Source: a virus. Taken from it: DNA of 32,409 bases. Below the pieces are notes generated by a model. The model was not told the DNA's origin, ran no database searches, and was given only the letters and a program-made list of their open reading frames with translations. Each line of letters opens with the position of its first letter. The first letter of the stretch is position 1. Shown piece after piece: positions 11,060-32,409 of the stretch. Position numbers and translations under genes: made by a program. The DNA is taken from positions 1-32,409 of the IMG/VR virus record IMGVR_UViG_3300006916_000028; one strand, given 5' to 3'.

Positions 11060-11581
11060 TTATGAAGCTTTCTTTGCTCGCTTAAGTACTTCAGTAGGTA
11101 TAGCTTCGTTAGTTCTCTCAGCTCTTGCTACATCTAAAGCGTCCATCTCTTTGAGAGTTGCCGCAATATCTTCTGGCATCTCTGCGTCGGGCTGGTCTTT
11201 AACAGTGGTAAAAGTATTACCTGTCATTTCTTTGTAAGCTTTCTGAAATGAAGCTAGCTCGGCTTGCATTACACGCAATCCGAATGCTTCAGCCTTCCAA
11301 GATGCGAGGCTAGATTGAAGGTTAGTTGTGGATATCTCGTCACCGTTATACTGGTTACGGTATTTCTTTGCCCATCGCTGAGCGTTGGCCTCGCGGTCTG
11401 CTTGACGTGGAATCCAGAACTCAAGATCTCCTATCTCTCGTTCTAGCTTACGTCTAGCATGAAAGGCCAGTGTATCAATGTGTTTCCAACCGTCTTCTTT
11501 GCCATCAATGTTGTTTGAGTGAATGTATAACTCTGTTGGGTTTGTGTAAGTTTCAACGATTGCTTTTGCTAATTTAGTCAT
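11060..11581 (-). CDS. Hypothetical early protein next to the structured region
   Basis: ATG 11581 has GGAG eight bases upstream and gives 173 residues; the longer frame to 11680 crosses a strong hairpin. The protein is charged and mostly helical, with E-F-W-I-P-R-Q-A-D-R-E-A-N-A-Q-R-W-A-K-K-Y and a Lys/Arg-rich end. No family is recognised. It has its own transcript start somewhere in the structured region to its right and is followed by a hairpin, so it is separate from the main early operon. I could not find a convincing promoter for it. Confidence 0.65.
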   Translation of the reverse strand: MTKLAKAIVETYTNPTELYIHSNNIDGKEDGWKHIDTLAFHARRKLEREIGDLEFWIPRQADREANAQRWAKKYRNQYNGDEISTTNLQSSLASWKAEAFGLRVMQAELASFQKAYKEMTGNTFTTVKDQPDAEMPEDIAATLKEMDALDVARAERTNEAIPTEVLKRAKKAS

Positions 11582-11623
11582 TTTATATACTCCATAAGTT
11601 TTGTTACTATTTTTATTAGTGTG

Positions 11624-11900
11624 AACCGACCAAGGTAGGGTGGTCGGTTGAGTCCGTGAAAAATAACTAACAAAAGGCACACGCGCGGCTTAGTCCGCGC
11701 CAAGTAAACTGCAATGGCATTACCAGTGCCGACCGTTACAACTTGAATCGCGGAAGGTTCATACTCGCGGATGCCCTGCCACTATCAGGCAGGTTAACAG
11801 CATCCGCAAAGGCAAAGGTGCATGAAGGCCGCTATTCCTGTTGTAACTGATTTGATAGATATTTTACACGAGTGAGACCGTCCACCCTACCGACTCGGTC
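11624..11900 (+). ncRNA. Candidate structured RNA with kissing loops (no coding)
   Basis: Nested inverted repeats fill this gene-free stretch. Hairpin A: AACCGACC/GGTCGGTT (11624-11631/11642-11649). Then GCGCGG/CCGCGC (11683-11688/11695-11700) and GGCAT/GTGCC (11716-11720/11726-11730). A closing stem GTTACAAC/GTTGTAAC (11735-11742/11840-11847) encloses TGAATC/GGTTCA (11744-11749/11756-11761) and a long stem GCGGATGC/GCATCCGC (11767-11774/11800-11807) capped by CCTGCC/GGCAGG. Hairpin B: GACCG/CGGTC (11876-11880/11896-11900). The loops of A and B are complementary over 10 bases (GGTAGGGTGG 11634-11643; CCACCCTACC 11882-11891). Two stems contain U-G pairs on the plus strand that become C-A mismatches on the minus, favouring a rightward RNA. 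A packaging or origin site is the alternative. Confidence 0.5.
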
Positions 11901-11939
11901 ACACTTCCCCCCCTTCGAGGGGGGGTTAGGGGGGGTGAC
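11898..11939. repeat. REP-like poly-C/poly-G palindrome
   Basis: C7 (11907-11913), TTCGA, G7 (11919-11925), then TTA and another G7 (11929-11935), inside GTCAC (11898-11902) / GTGAC (11935-11939). The pattern C(n)-TTCGA-G(n)-TTAG(n) resembles short palindromic repeat units scattered in bacterial chromosomes. Here it is single-copy. It is hyper-G/C against an A+T-rich genome. Confidence 0.6.
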
Positions 11940-11976: not shown

Positions 11977-12119
11977 TTGGGGCATAACGAAATGCCCCAA
12001 GGACAAGTCGGTACTCACCGCCCACTGGCGGCAGAGACCCTTGAGGCTCTGTCCTCTTGGATGAGTGGCGCGGTTTCCGCAAAAAAAAGAGCAGCTCTGC
12101 TGCACAATAATCGCGGAAA
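11977..12119. other. Second cluster of inverted repeats before the terminase promoter
   Basis: TTGGGGCAT/ATGCCCCAA (11977-11985/11992-12000) is a perfect 9-base hairpin. CCAAG+GACA (11997-12005) can pair with TGTC+CTTGG (12050-12060), enclosing CCGCC/GGCGG (12018-12022/12027-12031) and CAGAG/CTCTG (12032-12036/12047-12051). TTTCCGC/GCGGAAA (12074-12080/12113-12119) encloses GCAGC/GCTGC. AATCGCGGAA occurs here (12109-12118) and in the upstream element (11746-11755). No gene is supported. It could be part of the same RNA, a packaging site, or an origin. Confidence 0.5.
12081..12103 (-). terminator. Possible leftward terminator
   Basis: On the minus strand GCAGC-AGA-GCTGC is followed by TC and eight T. 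The stem is only five base pairs with a three-base loop, so it is modest. It would stop transcripts running antisense to the terminase gene before they enter the structured element. Confidence 0.35.
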
Positions 12120-12127
12120 TGGCCCAT

Positions 12128-12167
12128 AATGTGCGTTGACAAAGGTATATTTTGGCGTGGTATAGAT
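12128..12167 (+). promoter_or_regulatory. Late promoter before the terminase genes
   Basis: AATGTGCGTTGACA includes a consensus TTGACA (12136-12141), followed after 19 bases by TATAGAT (12161-12167). The extended element TGTGCGTTGA recurs upstream of the portal block and the fibre gene. It would start the late transcript about 35 bases before the small terminase ATG. Confidence 0.6.
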
Positions 12168-12190
12168 GGGGGGAGAGAGGGAGAGGGGGG
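12168..12190 (+). promoter_or_regulatory. Purine-only G-run tract in the terminase leader
   Basis: 23 bases of G and A only, with G6, G3 and G6 runs, lie between the promoter and the AAGGAG ribosome site. If transcription starts about 12173, the message would begin in this tract. It has enough G-runs for a G-quadruplex, which might tune small-terminase expression or mark DNA for packaging. Confidence 0.4.
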
Positions 12191-12206: not shown

Positions 12207-12584
12207 ATGAATACATTAGCAAACCGTAAACTAACGCCAAGACAGACAAAGCTAGTTGATACGCTTGTAGCCACTGGGTGTTCGATCAGACAAGCAGCAG
12301 CTGACGCTGGATACGCACAGGGTGAATCTGGAAGAGTAAGTGCAAGCAAAACGATACGGCTCCCACATGTGCAGCAGTATATGATGTCGCGTATCCAAGA
12401 CCAGTTAGGATTGAACGCTACGATGGCAGCATCGAAGGTGATGACGTTGGCTCAAGGTGCTAGATCAGAGCATGTACAGTTGGAAGCAGCCAAGGATATA
12501 CTGGATCGAGCAGGGTTCAAGCCAATAGATAGAGCGCAGGTACAGGTAGCTGGAGATATTACAGTGAGCATAGACCTTGGCTGA
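12207..12584 (+). CDS. Terminase small subunit
   Basis: The product has 125 residues. The N-terminal helix-turn-helix (L-T-P-R-Q-T-K-L-V-D-T-L-V-A-T-G-C-S-I-R-Q-A-A-A-D-A-G-Y) and the later A-A-K-D-I-L-D-R-A-G-F-K-P segment are the usual pattern of phage small terminases that recognise the packaging site. The tail ends D-I-T-V-S-I-D-L, as often seen. AAGGAG lies six bases before the ATG. Unusually, it is separated from the large subunit by eight tiny genes, and its upstream region is the structured element, a plausible target for binding. Confidence 0.75.
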   Translation: MNTLANRKLTPRQTKLVDTLVATGCSIRQAAADAGYAQGESGRVSASKTIRLPHVQQYMMSRIQDQLGLNATMAASKVMTLAQGARSEHVQLEAAKDILDRAGFKPIDRAQVQVAGDITVSIDLG

Positions 12585-14345: not shown

Positions 14346-14542
14346 GTTTTGTTAATACGTTAAAGCCTGAAGAGCTTACTATGCTTCGAGGGATAGTTAA
14401 GAAGGTACACTTTAAACACTTTGATGAAAAACACGGTGCTAGTTACGTTACGAATTACATGCTGGACAATGTTATTGATAATATTGGTCCTGATGTGGCA
14501 GAGTGTATGATCAAGGCTGGAGTAGATAAAGGTCTTAGATGA
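14342..14542 (+). CDS. Small hypothetical protein directly before the large terminase
   Basis: I choose GTG 14342, which overlaps the previous stop as GTGA, giving 66 residues; a TTG three codons earlier is less likely. The product is helical (T-M-L-R-G-I-V-K-K-V-H-F-K-H-F). Its stop overlaps the large terminase ATG by ATGA. No family recognised. Confidence 0.55.
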   Translation: MSFVNTLKPEELTMLRGIVKKVHFKHFDEKHGASYVTNYMLDNVIDNIGPDVAECMIKAGVDKGLR

Positions 14543-16062
14543 CTGAGTTTAAGTATAAGCCTGATGGCGATGTGCTAAAGGCTTTTATGAAAGATGATAC
14601 TTTCTTTCGTGGCATTCGAGGGCCAGTAGGTTCGGGTAAATCTGTTGGTTGTTGTGTTGAGGTTTTTCGTAGAGCCTTAATGCAAAAGAAAAACGATAAG
14701 GGTATTCGAAGAAGCCGATGGGCAATCATTCGTAATACAAACCCACAGCTTCGAACAACAACTATAAAGACTTGGCTTGATTGGTTTCCCGAAGAAACAT
14801 GGGGAAAGTTTACTTGGTCAGTTCCTTATACTCATAACATTAAAAAGAATGACCTAGAGCTTGAGGTTATTTTCTTAGCATTAGACAGACCTGAAGATGT
14901 CAAAAAACTTTTATCACTTGAGTTAACTGGCGTCTGGGTTAACGAAGCTAGAGAAGTTCCGAAGTCTATTATCGATGCGTGTACAATGCGTGTTGGTCGA
15001 TTTCCTTCTATGCGTGAAGGTGGGCCTAGTTGGTCAGGGGTAATATGTGATACTAATGCCCCTGAAGAAGATCACTGGTGGCCTATTATGTCAGGTGAAG
15101 TTCCTGTTCCTGATCATATTCCTAGAGAACAGGCACGAATGTTAGTTAAACCTGATAACTGGCAGTTCTTTAAACAACCGTCTGGAATGGTTGAAGTAAG
15201 GAACGAAGATGGTGAAGTTGTAAATTATAAACCTAATAAAGACTCTGAAAACATAAAACATATGCTGAAAGGCTATTACCCTAATTTAATTACAGGTAAA
15301 ACAAAAAGCTGGATTGATGTGTATGTTATGAATAGATTGGGAAGTATCCAAGATGGAAAGCCCATATATCCAATGTTCGCTGCAGAAGTACACATAGCCA
15401 AAGAAGAAATAGCAGTAGCTGCAAGCCTACCGCTATACGTTGGTTTGGATTTTGGGTTAACTCCAGCAGCCACTCTTGGACAAAAAATCAGAGGCCGCTG
15501 GCTTGTGCAGTCTGAAATAGTAGCTTTTGATATGGGGATTGTTAGATTTGCCGAGGTGTTGCGTGAGGAAATATCCTCCCGATTTTCCCAAGCATCTGAG
15601 GTATTTATATATGGCGATCCTGCTGGGGATTTTAGAGCGCAGACGGACGAAAGTACCCCTTTCCATATTCTGCGTGGTGCTGGTTTGAGGGCATTCCCAG
15701 CCCCTTCGAACTCTGTAGATCTTCGATTGGAAGCTGTGTCTTCCCAGCTAACTAAGATGGTCGAGGGCAAGCCAGCATTTTTAATTGATAGAAGATGCCA
15801 ACAACTTATTAAGGGTTTTGAAGGTGGGTATCAGTATAGACGAATGGAAGTATCTGGTGAACGTTATGCAGATAAACCCGATAAGAATATGTTTTCTCAT
15901 ATTCACGATGCGTTACAATACATGATGCTAGGCGCTGGTGAAGGTAGAGCCTTGTTAAATAATCAGAAACCTGCAAAGGCTGTAGTTGCAAATAGAAATT
16001 TTGACTTGTTTTCTAAGCATAAGCCAAAACAAAGAAGGCAAGGATTTTGGGCGCGTATGTAA
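14539..16062 (+). CDS. Terminase large subunit (packaging ATPase/nuclease)
   Basis: The product has 507 residues. Walker A is G-P-V-G-S-G-K-S at 28-35; Walker B ends V-W-V-N-E136. The RNase H-like nuclease core shows Y-V-G-L-D304-F-G, I-Y-G-D360-P-A-G and H-I-H-D457-A-L-Q-Y, all three expected acidic residues present. It drives DNA into procapsids through the portal and cuts the concatemer. It overlaps the previous tiny gene by ATGA and is followed by a late promoter, so head genes get extra transcription. Confidence 0.93.
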   Translation: MTEFKYKPDGDVLKAFMKDDTFFRGIRGPVGSGKSVGCCVEVFRRALMQKKNDKGIRRSRWAIIRNTNPQLRTTTIKTWLDWFPEETWGKFTWSVPYTHNIKKNDLELEVIFLALDRPEDVKKLLSLELTGVWVNEAREVPKSIIDACTMRVGRFPSMREGGPSWSGVICDTNAPEEDHWWPIMSGEVPVPDHIPREQARMLVKPDNWQFFKQPSGMVEVRNEDGEVVNYKPNKDSENIKHMLKGYYPNLITGKTKSWIDVYVMNRLGSIQDGKPIYPMFAAEVHIAKEEIAVAASLPLYVGLDFGLTPAATLGQKIRGRWLVQSEIVAFDMGIVRFAEVLREEISSRFSQASEVFIYGDPAGDFRAQTDESTPFHILRGAGLRAFPAPSNSVDLRLEAVSSQLTKMVEGKPAFLIDRRCQQLIKGFEGGYQYRRMEVSGERYADKPDKNMFSHIHDALQYMMLGAGEGRALLNNQKPAKAVVANRNFDLFSKHKPKQRRQGFWARM

Positions 16063-30800: not shown

Positions 30801-31603
30801 CAAAAAGAATTGCTGCTCAACCTACGCAAGAAACTAAAAATGGTTTTATATTAGCAAACACAGATGCTTGGGATGATGAAATAGCATTAGAATCTTTTCA
30901 AAATGCTTTACGCTCTGGTGTAATGAATAGAATAATTATGGGTACACCTGCTGATAAACCACTAGTTATGTCTGGTAAAACTTATATGCCAATGCATCTT
31001 GCTAAAGAATTAGGACTAACAGAAAGTAAAAGAGTAAAGGGATATGCTGAGTTAGAGCATCCTTTCTTAGCATTACCATTTACATTTTATACATATACTG
31101 TTGGCGCATTGAATAAAGTTACAACAAACTATGCTCAAGGTGGTGTTCGAGGAGCAAACATGGCAATACATAGTGCTGTAGCTATGTTCTTTGGATACAA
31201 CATTGTTAAGTTTCGAACTCCAGATTTTGCATGGAATGAAATGGATGCTGAAGATAAAGTGCTTCGCGCATTTGATTTCTCTGGTTTGATGCCATTACAC
31301 AGTGATATGTTTTATAGATCATTAGAAATGGGTATGGCTTTTGATATTGAAAACCCTTTACCTTTTGAACCTAAATTTAAAGAAGACCCAGATGCTTTGG
31401 GTGGATTAGTTTCTGTATTTGGCGCTCCTGCTGATTATAGTTATGGCTTTGTTAAGGTATTAAAAGATTTTGCTAGTGGTGAATATAGTGATGCTACAGA
31501 ACAAACTGTTAAACAAATACCATTGATTTGGAATATGTTTCTTAAGCCTTATACTAATAGACTTAAAAATGCGCTTGGTGATTTTGCAGAGGAATATGAA
31601 TAA
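27842..31603 (+). CDS. Large internal/ejection protein 2 (T7 gp16 position)
   Basis: The product has 1253 residues. The N-terminus is Pro-rich (P-T-V-T-L-K-P-F-P-D-R-D), followed by a glycine-rich hydrophobic helix (LIAELATLGGGYALV). More such segments are A-H-G-V-S-S-V-L-G-F-G-I-G-A-G-I, Y-L-G-G-A-G-I-A-A-V-A-D-F and A-V-A-M-F-F-G-Y, able to insert in membranes. Charged coiled-coil regions lie between. Context and size (T7 gp16 about 1318) fit the inner-membrane ejection channel protein. The lytic transglycosylase domain of T7 gp16 is not evident. Confidence 0.65.
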   Translation: MTDNSIKPTVTLKPFPDRDLGVRLPDPSFAEVFAGQTHRYVGPFFNALGDMWNTFGVEEEGEKRDLGFDSKAFIESKNISLNSPQGRYILNYASNPESAQEAYDKVIEDEMNQKLIEQGGFVKQFLTDPILIAELATLGGGYALVKKMAREKYGKVLGDAFLSTNDIAKIKRRNALDVQKRIEKKFAQQKDEVIEDDLLMEPFEETLKDTKTAKNFKAALDAKLSETMAMKGFKIANAEALFFEGSANVLMLANDLSGQKDADQAILDALSRQAVAHGVSSVLGFGIGAGIDKIRKRPQAASLEKSFAETMKNFEDLSKGVNANPRVLRDDLKLNELKDDDLIFQGEWWTESLFYKALPTPVKAVMGNKSLAPNSVKLRFMRLVNDGGVLFKLNQRGAGFGTSVFQEAGRLSGKWGNTYNKIHELWGEASNSGNYAIADMQISDTIETIQKLRGKESLTFEDFGQHITDLYIHNKTPTTDVEKKAVQILKEYFEEWDNLLNNAGLLRGHGSLIGRKLKTEIGISEQVNVYNDILEKNTMFLENNIIKKREKLAQYDKDFKSRGLTKSQLATRKAIQEELDEFSAAYEASQRVRTFEDARRYIERMKLTDPQKKTLLSKQKIITEMEERLDNLKSYLDGTAVEKGLKENFFPRYFDKRKILANREAFEQKIINHYSRNPFIWSWDDKTKRYTQVRLEIDEASIKRRAKKTTDEILDLVDDDGFTDAYFGKGRSKHLIHRQLDIPNSELAEFMVTDLKQVLIAYNEKVAPKLAFAQKFQTTKGLPATLDDLLNANTTEMKKLKIPQKEIDRINKEFTGSYDRIVGRVLTKPDSLSTRTAQWLQAATQWTYLGGAGIAAVADFANIFLDHEMKTIFKGIVSLAQDNSITVAKKELQKAGDGFEIIGGSYHMKFVESLSSNPFRNGLTDKVNDAFYKFNLLGQMTMTAKTMEGMFRSHTIIDMSKKLASGKKLTKFETNFLSRYNIDKMKAKRIAAQPTQETKNGFILANTDAWDDEIALESFQNALRSGVMNRIIMGTPADKPLVMSGKTYMPMHLAKELGLTESKRVKGYAELEHPFLALPFTFYTYTVGALNKVTTNYAQGGVRGANMAIHSAVAMFFGYNIVKFRTPDFAWNEMDAEDKVLRAFDFSGLMPLHSDMFYRSLEMGMAFDIENPLPFEPKFKEDPDALGGLVSVFGAPADYSYGFVKVLKDFASGEYSDATEQTVKQIPLIWNMFLKPYTNRLKNALGDFAEEYE

Positions 31604-31639
31604 TTGTGCGTTGAGATTATAAAATCTAACTGTTATGGC
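31602..31639 (+). promoter_or_regulatory. Late promoter before the fibre gene
   Basis: TAATTGTGCGTTGA starts in the stop codon of the preceding gene. TTGAGA (31611-31616), 17 bases, TATGGC (31634-31639). A start at about 31646 would leave a leader of only about 11 bases, containing AAAGGA. It adds transcription for the fibre and lysis genes beyond the circle junction. Confidence 0.6.
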
Positions 31640-31656
31640 AAACAAAAGGATATTTT

Positions 31657-32409
31657 ATGACTATTACTATTGGAAATAACGATCCTCGTATATCGTATTC
31701 TGTAGCAGAAGGTGCTTCACAATCAGTTTTTGCTGTGCCTTTTGAGTTTTTTGATAATGGAGATTTAAATGTTTACGTTGATGGAACTCTTAAAACTATA
31801 ACAACTCATTATTCTGTAAGCGGTGGAAGTGGATCTACTGGTCAAGTTGATATATCTGTTACTGGTGCAACAGGTGGATCTACTGTTATTATTACAAGAT
31901 CTATTTCTCAACAAAGAACAACTGATTTTCCAACATCTGGTCCATTTAATATATCTTCACTGAACACAGAGCTTGACAGGTTTATGGCTATAGCTGCTGA
32001 TCTTCAAGATTCTGCTGATCGATCATTAAAATTAGTTGATTATGATAGTGAAGTAGACACTCAAATGCCATTGTTGGCTGCTCGAAAGGGTACTGTTCTT
32101 GGTTTTAATGCAAGCACTGGTGTTCCTGAAGCTGGCCCAACAATAACAGATGTTGGTAGTCTTGCTGCAATTACTGCTGATATTACAGCATTAGCAGATA
32201 TTGAAGATGGAACGGTAGCTACAGATGCAATCTCTGGATTAGCTGCAATAAAAGCAAACGTAACAACGGTTGCTGGTATAGCATCTAATGTTACTTCGGT
32301 TGCTGGAAATGCTTCTAATATTAATACTGTTGCTGCTGATGGATCAGACATTGGAACGGTGGCAGGTTCGATTTCAAATGTAAATACTGTTGCTGCTGCT
32401 GATAGTAAT
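31657..32409 (+). CDS. T7-type tail fibre/adaptor protein, N-terminal part (continues at base 1)
   Basis: 251 codons are open to the window end. Residues about 1-130 are a T7 tail-fibre N-terminal domain: N-D-P-R-I-S-Y-S-V-A-E-G-A-S-Q, F-A-V-P-F-E-F-F, R-T-T-D-F-P-T-S-G-P-F and L-N-T-E-L-D-R-F-M-A-I-A-A-D-L-Q-D-S-A-D-R-S-L-K are all typical. It binds the tail tube. After about 165 a repeat shaft begins. Joined over the end overlap the protein is 316 residues, too short to carry its own receptor tip, which fits an adaptor for the next fibre. Confidence 0.9.
   Translation, partial: MTITIGNNDPRISYSVAEGASQSVFAVPFEFFDNGDLNVYVDGTLKTITTHYSVSGGSGSTGQVDISVTGATGGSTVIITRSISQQRTTDFPTSGPFNISSLNTELDRFMAIAADLQDSADRSLKLVDYDSEVDTQMPLLAARKGTVLGFNASTGVPEAGPTITDVGSLAAITADITALADIEDGTVATDAISGLAAIKANVTTVAGIASNVTSVAGNASNINTVAADGSDIGTVAGSISNVNTVAAADSN
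32287..32409 (+). repeat. Terminal 123-base overlap, right copy
   Basis: Identical to bases 1-123. The unique genome length is therefore 32,286 bases. Confidence 0.9.

Follow-up and report, generated by a model that had tools for sequence, protein, structure and literature searches.

A Structured Phage RNA with a Long Closing Rod and a Branched Head, Encoded between the Early Genes and the Small Terminase Gene

Introduction

What is the folded stretch of about 290 bases that sits at the early/late gene boundary of an uncultured, marine-type phage? The window analyzed here is a 32,409-nucleotide stretch of viral DNA. In it, the segment 11618–11905 lies between a leftward ORF (11060–11581), the last of the early-gene block, and the rightward small terminase gene TerS (12207–12584), which matches PHROG 2538 and is the first gene of the rightward block. 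The large terminase gene TerL (14539–16062, PHROGs match) and the genes for a head-tail connector protein and a capsid protein all lie downstream of TerS. The segment has a G+C content of 51%, compared with 38% for the genome. A first-pass annotation had proposed that 11624–11900 harbors an undescribed phage-encoded structured RNA, or else a structured packaging site, with two hairpins joined through a 10-bp contact between their loops.

The two ends of the window are adjacent in a related contig, L007, within a repeated stretch (window 31600–32409 plus 1–100; L007 900–1805). Because the window's end runs into its start there, the genome probably has a circular map of about 32.4 kb, with the segment at the point where early and late genes diverge. 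The record is thus probably a near-complete, circularly mapping genome that was broken at the repeat.

Results

Folding and Architecture of the Segment

The segment 11618–11905 has a predicted minimum free energy (MFE) of −127.8 kcal/mol, compared with a mean of −81.3 kcal/mol for 200 dinucleotide shuffles (z = −9.45), none of which folds as stably, in agreement with the earlier view that such a structure is hard to get by chance. The individual pairings on which that view was built are also present: GGTAGGGTGG (11634–11643) is the exact reverse complement of CCACCCTACC (11882–11891), a complementary 10-mer at a distance of at least 100 bases being found in only 2 of 500 dinucleotide shuffles of the segment; 11735–11742 (GTTACAAC) and 11840–11847 (GTTGTAAC) form a perfect 8-bp stem; and the inner hairpins at 11683–11700 and 11767–11807 and the bulged stem are all there. 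G-U pairs appear upon rightward reading, as reported (for example, U11649-G11876), and the claimed lack of coding potential agrees with our finding no ORF of 60 amino acids or more on the + strand of the segment. The interval 11624–11900 falls within the structure, the true extent of which is slightly longer, at 11618–11905.

In the predicted structure, an RNA of about 290 nt is brought together at its ends by a long irregular rod and carries a branched head. The closing rod, P1, of approximately 38 bp interrupted by mismatches and bulges of 1 nt, takes in the reported 10-bp complementarity. Its outer part is seen in the MFE structure and is supported by compensatory changes; the 5′ strand of this part (11618–11649, + strand, as for all features below) comprises P1a (11618–11624), a bulged A (11625), P1b (11626–11629), a loop (11630–11633), and P1c (11634–11643 and, beyond a U-U mismatch, 11645–11649). 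The inner rod (11655–11674), consisting of CGTG (11655–11658), AAAATA (11660–11665), CTA (11667–11669), and CAAA (11671–11674), pairs with 11851–11870. The 3′ strand of the rod (11851–11905), likewise seen in the MFE structure and supported by covariation, returns through the inner rod (11851–11870), P1c (11876–11891), a GAC loop (11892–11894), P1b (11895–11898), and P1a (11899–11905).

The head has two arms. Arm P2 (11676–11730), closed by the covarying helix GGCAC (11676–11680)/GTGCC (11726–11730), contains hairpin P3 (11683–11688/11695–11700), the strongly conserved single-stranded segment CAAGUAAAC (11701–11709), and the small hairpin P4 (11710–11712/11717–11719); AAACUGCAA is invariant in this arm. 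The other arm is the long P5 (11735–11847), built from P5a (11735–11742/11840–11847), P5b (11745–11748/11834–11837), P5c (11750–11753/11829–11832), and P5d (11758–11762/11822–11826), with a conserved asymmetric internal loop (AAGG at 11754–11757 facing GG at 11827–11828). Its tip (11767–11807) is exchangeable: the window has a nested hairpin, GCGGATGC/GCATCCGC with CCTGCC/GGCAGG, and relatives have other hairpins.

Directly 3′ of the rod, a C7-UUCG-G7 hairpin is followed by a second G7 run (11907–11936), so that the C-run has two alternative partners. This hairpin occurs in many, but not all, members of the family described below, and also after several unrelated RNAs that occupy the slot just upstream of TerS in other phages.

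Covariation in Homologous Phage Sequences

TerS-anchored and pattern searches of metagenomic phage contigs brought the number of distinct homologous sequences to ten (the window, L083, L084, L089, which equals L007, L085–L088, L090, and L092); IMG/VR contains several hundred more TerS relatives. Folded separately, they share one plan, namely the closing rod P1, arm P2 with P3 and P4, and arm P5 with its variable tip. The rod and the P5 arm are given by every member's independently computed MFE structure; the exception to the plan is L087, whose unconstrained fold swaps P2 for another pairing. Even the distant L085, in which DNA similarity to the window is confined to short blocks, folds with a z-score of −8.95.

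For the covariation analysis, an alignment was made from sequence alone, and the window structure was scored on it against controls in which the structure was slid. In register, 86.6% of cells are paired (35–40% when slid), 13 pairs are doubly changed (at most 3 when slid), and the covariation score is 0.179 (0.033–0.058 when slid), with 0 of 500 shuffles scoring as high. Segmentation by hand reveals helices whose sequences are replaced wholesale while pairing is retained. The outer helix, which has compensatory changes in every member, goes from GUGUGA/UCACAC to AUUUGA/UCAAAU; the inner rod from CGUG/CACG to UGUA/UACA in L089 and GCGU/ACGC in L085–L092; P2 from GGCAC/GUGCC through GCCAC/GUGGC to GCCAU/AUGGC; P5b from GAAU/AUUC to CAAU/AUUG; and P5c from GCGG/CCGC to ACGG/CCGU. 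In L089, both strands of P1c are four bases shorter at once, which preserves the helix. Because the members form two main clades, the independent events are fewer than the cell counts, many pair changes tracing to few events. The covariation check in related phages that the first-pass annotation had called for was positive, and stems broken without compensating changes were not what these genomes contained.

Strand of the RNA

To compare the two strands without favoring either, we left G-U pairs out of the structure prediction. In the rightward reading, G-U then occurs in 85 pair columns and C-A in 28, taken over 13 groups of related slots. Counted per locus, the window lineage has single mismatches of the G-U and C-A types at 34.5 to 14.5, and the lineage of Pelagibacter phage EXVC031P Hodr has them at 47.5 to 11.5, whereas base composition predicts a ratio of about 1.15; the L085–L092 clade alone is balanced, with 2 G-U and 2 C-A. 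The excess of G-U over C-A favors a rightward RNA over either a DNA element or a leftward RNA, with the caveat that a strand-biased mutation process could bear on these counts. The segment thus combines covariation beyond controls with strand-specific tolerance of G-U pairs, and strong folding, covariation in homologues, and the rightward strand signal together uphold the original suggestion of a phage-encoded structured RNA. We consider it highly probable that 11618–11905 is selected as RNA and read rightward.

Continuous Rod versus Kissing Hairpins

The reported loop-loop contact would join hairpin H1 (11626–11647; CCGACC/GGTCGG, loop AAGGTAGGGT), which is mutually exclusive with P1b/P1c, to hairpin H2 (11876–11900; GACCG/CGGTC, loop 11881–11895). 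Rod and two-hairpin models share the same pairs for the 10-bp contact. These pairs covary, but they are better explained as a segment of the continuous rod. When the two-hairpin form is forced, it is 12–23 kcal/mol weaker than the rod with the contact not yet added, and the loop-loop duplex alone is worth −3.7 to −14.8 kcal/mol. Since 11642–11643 belong both to the H1 stem (11626–11631/11642–11647) and to the contact, the contact that can coexist with H1 is limited to 8 bp in the window, to 6 bp in L085, and to 4 bp in L089, whereas the rod segment P1c keeps 12–15 pairs in all members. Furthermore, the outer helix P1a, which is largely incompatible with H2, covaries in all members. Given the weaker hairpin form, the shrinking contact, and the covarying outer helix, the best read of the folding models is that the reported contact is part of one continuous closing rod.

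An arrangement in which H1 and H2 kiss through their loops, within or between molecules, with a four-way junction in place of the continuous rod, is accordingly improbable, though it has points in its favor. Both hairpins have arms that are conserved, though changed in sequence (H1, CCGACC/GGUCGG, becomes CCUGCC/GGCAGG in L085–L092, and the arms of H2 in L085 are UUGACCUG/CAGGUCAA), H1 would form first during transcription, and other slot RNAs also have self-complementary ends. Because the hairpin arms are conserved as well, a two-hairpin conformer is a possible alternative or co-transcriptional, transient form of the rod RNA.

A Slot of Exchanged Modules Upstream of TerS

Most related phages have strongly structured, mostly unalignable RNAs in the slot just upstream of TerS. 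With the sequence just downstream as control, the mean excess stability is −28 kcal/mol in the slot versus −2 in the control for the window lineage (41 distinct loci), and −47 versus −11 kcal/mol for the Hodr lineage (58 distinct loci). Slot structure is not universal, as L015, L076, L080, L128, and L166 have no excess stability there.

The modules take several forms. A different rod, similar at its 5′ end (CCGACCCRAAGG...), occurs in L004, L045, L050, L064, and L081; in all of these except L004, the outer helix changes in sequence and keeps its pairing. The P5 motif CGGAAGC-UUCAU/AUGAA-AACCG recurs, together with a rod, in L061, L044, and L072. In Hodr and its close relatives, the slot consists of an imperfect inverted repeat whose arms measure approximately 205–280 bases; the left arm and the start of the leftward gene overlap, and the right arm ends a few to about twenty bases from TerS. 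Such giant inverted repeats, at about 75% over 205–280 bases, lie upstream of TerS in L094 (3447–3660/3710–3914), L107 (935–1170/1267–1497), and L114 (888–1160/1218–1500). The right arm in the Hodr lineage resembles a degenerate inverted copy of the leftward gene's start, SD and ATG included. In the slots of L018, L049, L058, and L046, palindromes of the TGACGTNACGTCA type recur in folded elements and beside the TTGACA promoter, and may be an operator or modification site.

Comparison of the slot with its neighbors indicates that its RNA is exchanged as a module independently of both flanking genes. The window and L084 have RNAs with 98.6% identity next to leftward genes that are unrelated; between L004 and L089, the leftward genes are 85% identical and the RNAs differ; and the TerS of L004 is 98% identical to the window's while its slot RNA is unalignable. 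This independence argues both against a leader dedicated to the leftward gene and against a terminase-specific packaging site.

The former would be a structure in the opposite strand that controls the early gene 11060–11581. The segment is indeed directly upstream of that gene's start, and a leftward promoter-like site lies at 11607–11580; however, the strand test favors the other strand, and the same RNA precedes unrelated leftward genes in the window and L084, which makes this reading very improbable.

A DNA-level quasi-palindrome (a packaging site, origin, or recombination site), with a symmetry arising from template-switch repair or cruciform selection, would suit arms that are inverted repeats, more than 200 bases long in the Hodr lineage, and modules that are exchanged at their borders. 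Against it stand an excess of G-U over C-A beyond composition, conserved unpaired residues, and a multi-branched head. The packaging site that had been offered as an alternative to an RNA likewise lacks support: a pac or cos site would be co-inherited with its terminase, whereas here nearly identical TerS genes adjoin unrelated modules. The contigs run intact through the region, although assemblies cannot map real virion ends, and the window's own ends join in L007. We regard a DNA element as unlikely.

These observations suggest, as a tentative proposal to which we give somewhat less than even weight, that this lineage of abundant, marine-type phages keeps a dedicated RNA slot at the early/late switch, filled by exchanged and mostly unrelated modules (branched-head rods or giant hairpins of over 200 bases per arm), all rightward and all performing one shape-dependent job. 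The window's RNA may, with similar reserve, be one such module, with a job that rests on shape more than on sequence.

Comparison with Known RNAs

No Rfam 15 family matches the segment at its gathering threshold, and nothing relevant appears at E-values up to 10, GOLLD and ROOL included, so that the RNA, which the first-pass annotation took to be undescribed, has no counterpart in Rfam. Permissive thresholds added only chance hits with low scores; whalefall-1, for example, matched the C/G-run hairpin at 17 bits, with 37 needed. A DNA similarity search in phage records gave no match. A pattern search of 84,980 bacterial and archaeal genomes gave 11 matches, about the number expected by chance, of which none has the downstream motif and none is picked up by the covariance model. 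With the leftward neighbor protein as bait, only near-identical contigs were returned. Run over the related phage slots, covariance model R1 found only known members and the weak relatives L061 and L044 (E = 0.02), which proved on closer inspection to have the P5 arm and a rod in common with the window's RNA. A retron or CRISPR-type RNA was rejected, as no reverse transcriptase or RNA-guided nuclease is among the ORFs scanned.

Viral metagenomes have reportedly yielded a published catalogue of candidates for structured RNAs, and the window's RNA, of which we found no description in the literature, may already be an unnamed candidate in it. As far as we could find, a slot of swapped modules is undescribed.

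Among known RNAs, 6S RNA resembles the segment in its rod-like closing structure; the window's RNA, however, has no Rfam match to it, lacks a conserved large central bubble, and has a branched head. With the phi29 packaging RNA, the window's RNA has in common that it is a structured phage RNA near packaging genes and that complementary loops were proposed for it, but there is no Rfam pRNA match, TerS and the RNA module of these phages do not vary together, and phi29-like phages lack a small terminase, whereas this phage encodes both TerS and TerL. The nearest kinds are GOLLD and ROOL, large ornate RNAs of phages and prophages whose function is unknown and which assemble via kissing loops (PMC12286853). 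They share with the window's RNA a phage origin, a non-coding nature, and an elaborate covarying structure (PMC12286853). At about 290 nt, however, the window's RNA is much shorter than either, GOLLD members often having more than 800 nt; its architecture differs, it lies at the terminase junction rather than in tRNA islands, and it matches neither Rfam model.

Possible Roles at the Early/Late Boundary

As a whole, the data are probably best explained by a rightward structured RNA with a rod and a branched head, perhaps the leader of the late unit. We infer the transcription of the window's RNA and any role that it has. As a leader, the RNA would stand at the head of the late unit that begins with TerS and act in cis on rightward (late) transcription; it could alter the polymerase during elongation, as put-type RNAs do, or serve to protect or process late transcripts at their 5′ end. 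The put RNAs of phage HK022 are nascent-RNA antiterminators, double hairpins of about 70 nt in early operons. In such a role, the window's RNA would, like them, head a long phage operon as a structured leader and act on it in cis; it differs from them in size, form, and the kind of operon.

A cis-acting leader of late transcription is our first choice, held tentatively, because the position of the RNA, at the start of the late unit, is fixed and a scan of the + strand found no rightward intrinsic terminator after it. Its weak points are that position is its sole basis and that the likely late promoter is downstream of the RNA. Between the RNA and TerS, TTGACA (12136–12141), TATAGAT (12161–12167), and a G-rich stretch form a + strand element (12136–12190) in which TTGACA and the G-rich stretch are conserved in alignments, and the TTGACA/TATAGAT pair is, from its sequence, a likely late promoter. 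The RNA would therefore need an upstream promoter of its own, and we found no convincing rightward one upstream of 11618.

A phage RNA that stands on its own and acts in trans, perhaps assembling with itself as GOLLD and ROOL do, is nearly as likely as the leader, and thus also doubtful. A self-contained module that reassorts independently of both neighbors would suit it, as would conserved single-stranded and internal-loop residues that resemble binding or tertiary motifs, and it has a precedent in the assembly of GOLLD and ROOL through kissing loops (PMC12286853). Here, with the same degree of doubt, the rod would close the molecule, and the conserved head would bind a target, from host or phage, or further copies of the RNA. 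On the other side, the position upstream of TerS is fixed in all members whose contig reaches TerS, a free RNA would lack a visible terminator, and neither the size nor the models of GOLLD and ROOL fit.

Whichever role applies, this work adds a well-supported structured RNA family without an Rfam relative, and a single fixed position in a large phage lineage at which strongly folded, mostly unrelated RNAs are swapped like cassettes. Should the slot RNAs have a common job, the idea that the early/late switch is under a control that depends on structure and tolerates sequence change can be tested directly; Hodr, a relative available as an isolate, offers a system for such a test.

Two further elements lie close to TerS. 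GGGGGGAGAGAGGGAGAGGGGGG (12168–12190), which abuts TATAGAT just upstream of TerS, is near-invariant over much of the lineage and may be a G-quadruplex, a leader, or a terminase site. A second conserved folded element precedes TerS at 12000–12130 (ACTCACCGCC..., with GGTTTCCGC...GCGGAAATGGCC around A8GAGCAGC) and is common to phages whose upstream slot holds a different RNA; in the leftward reading, it has a terminator-like hairpin plus TCTTTTTTTT (12103–12091).
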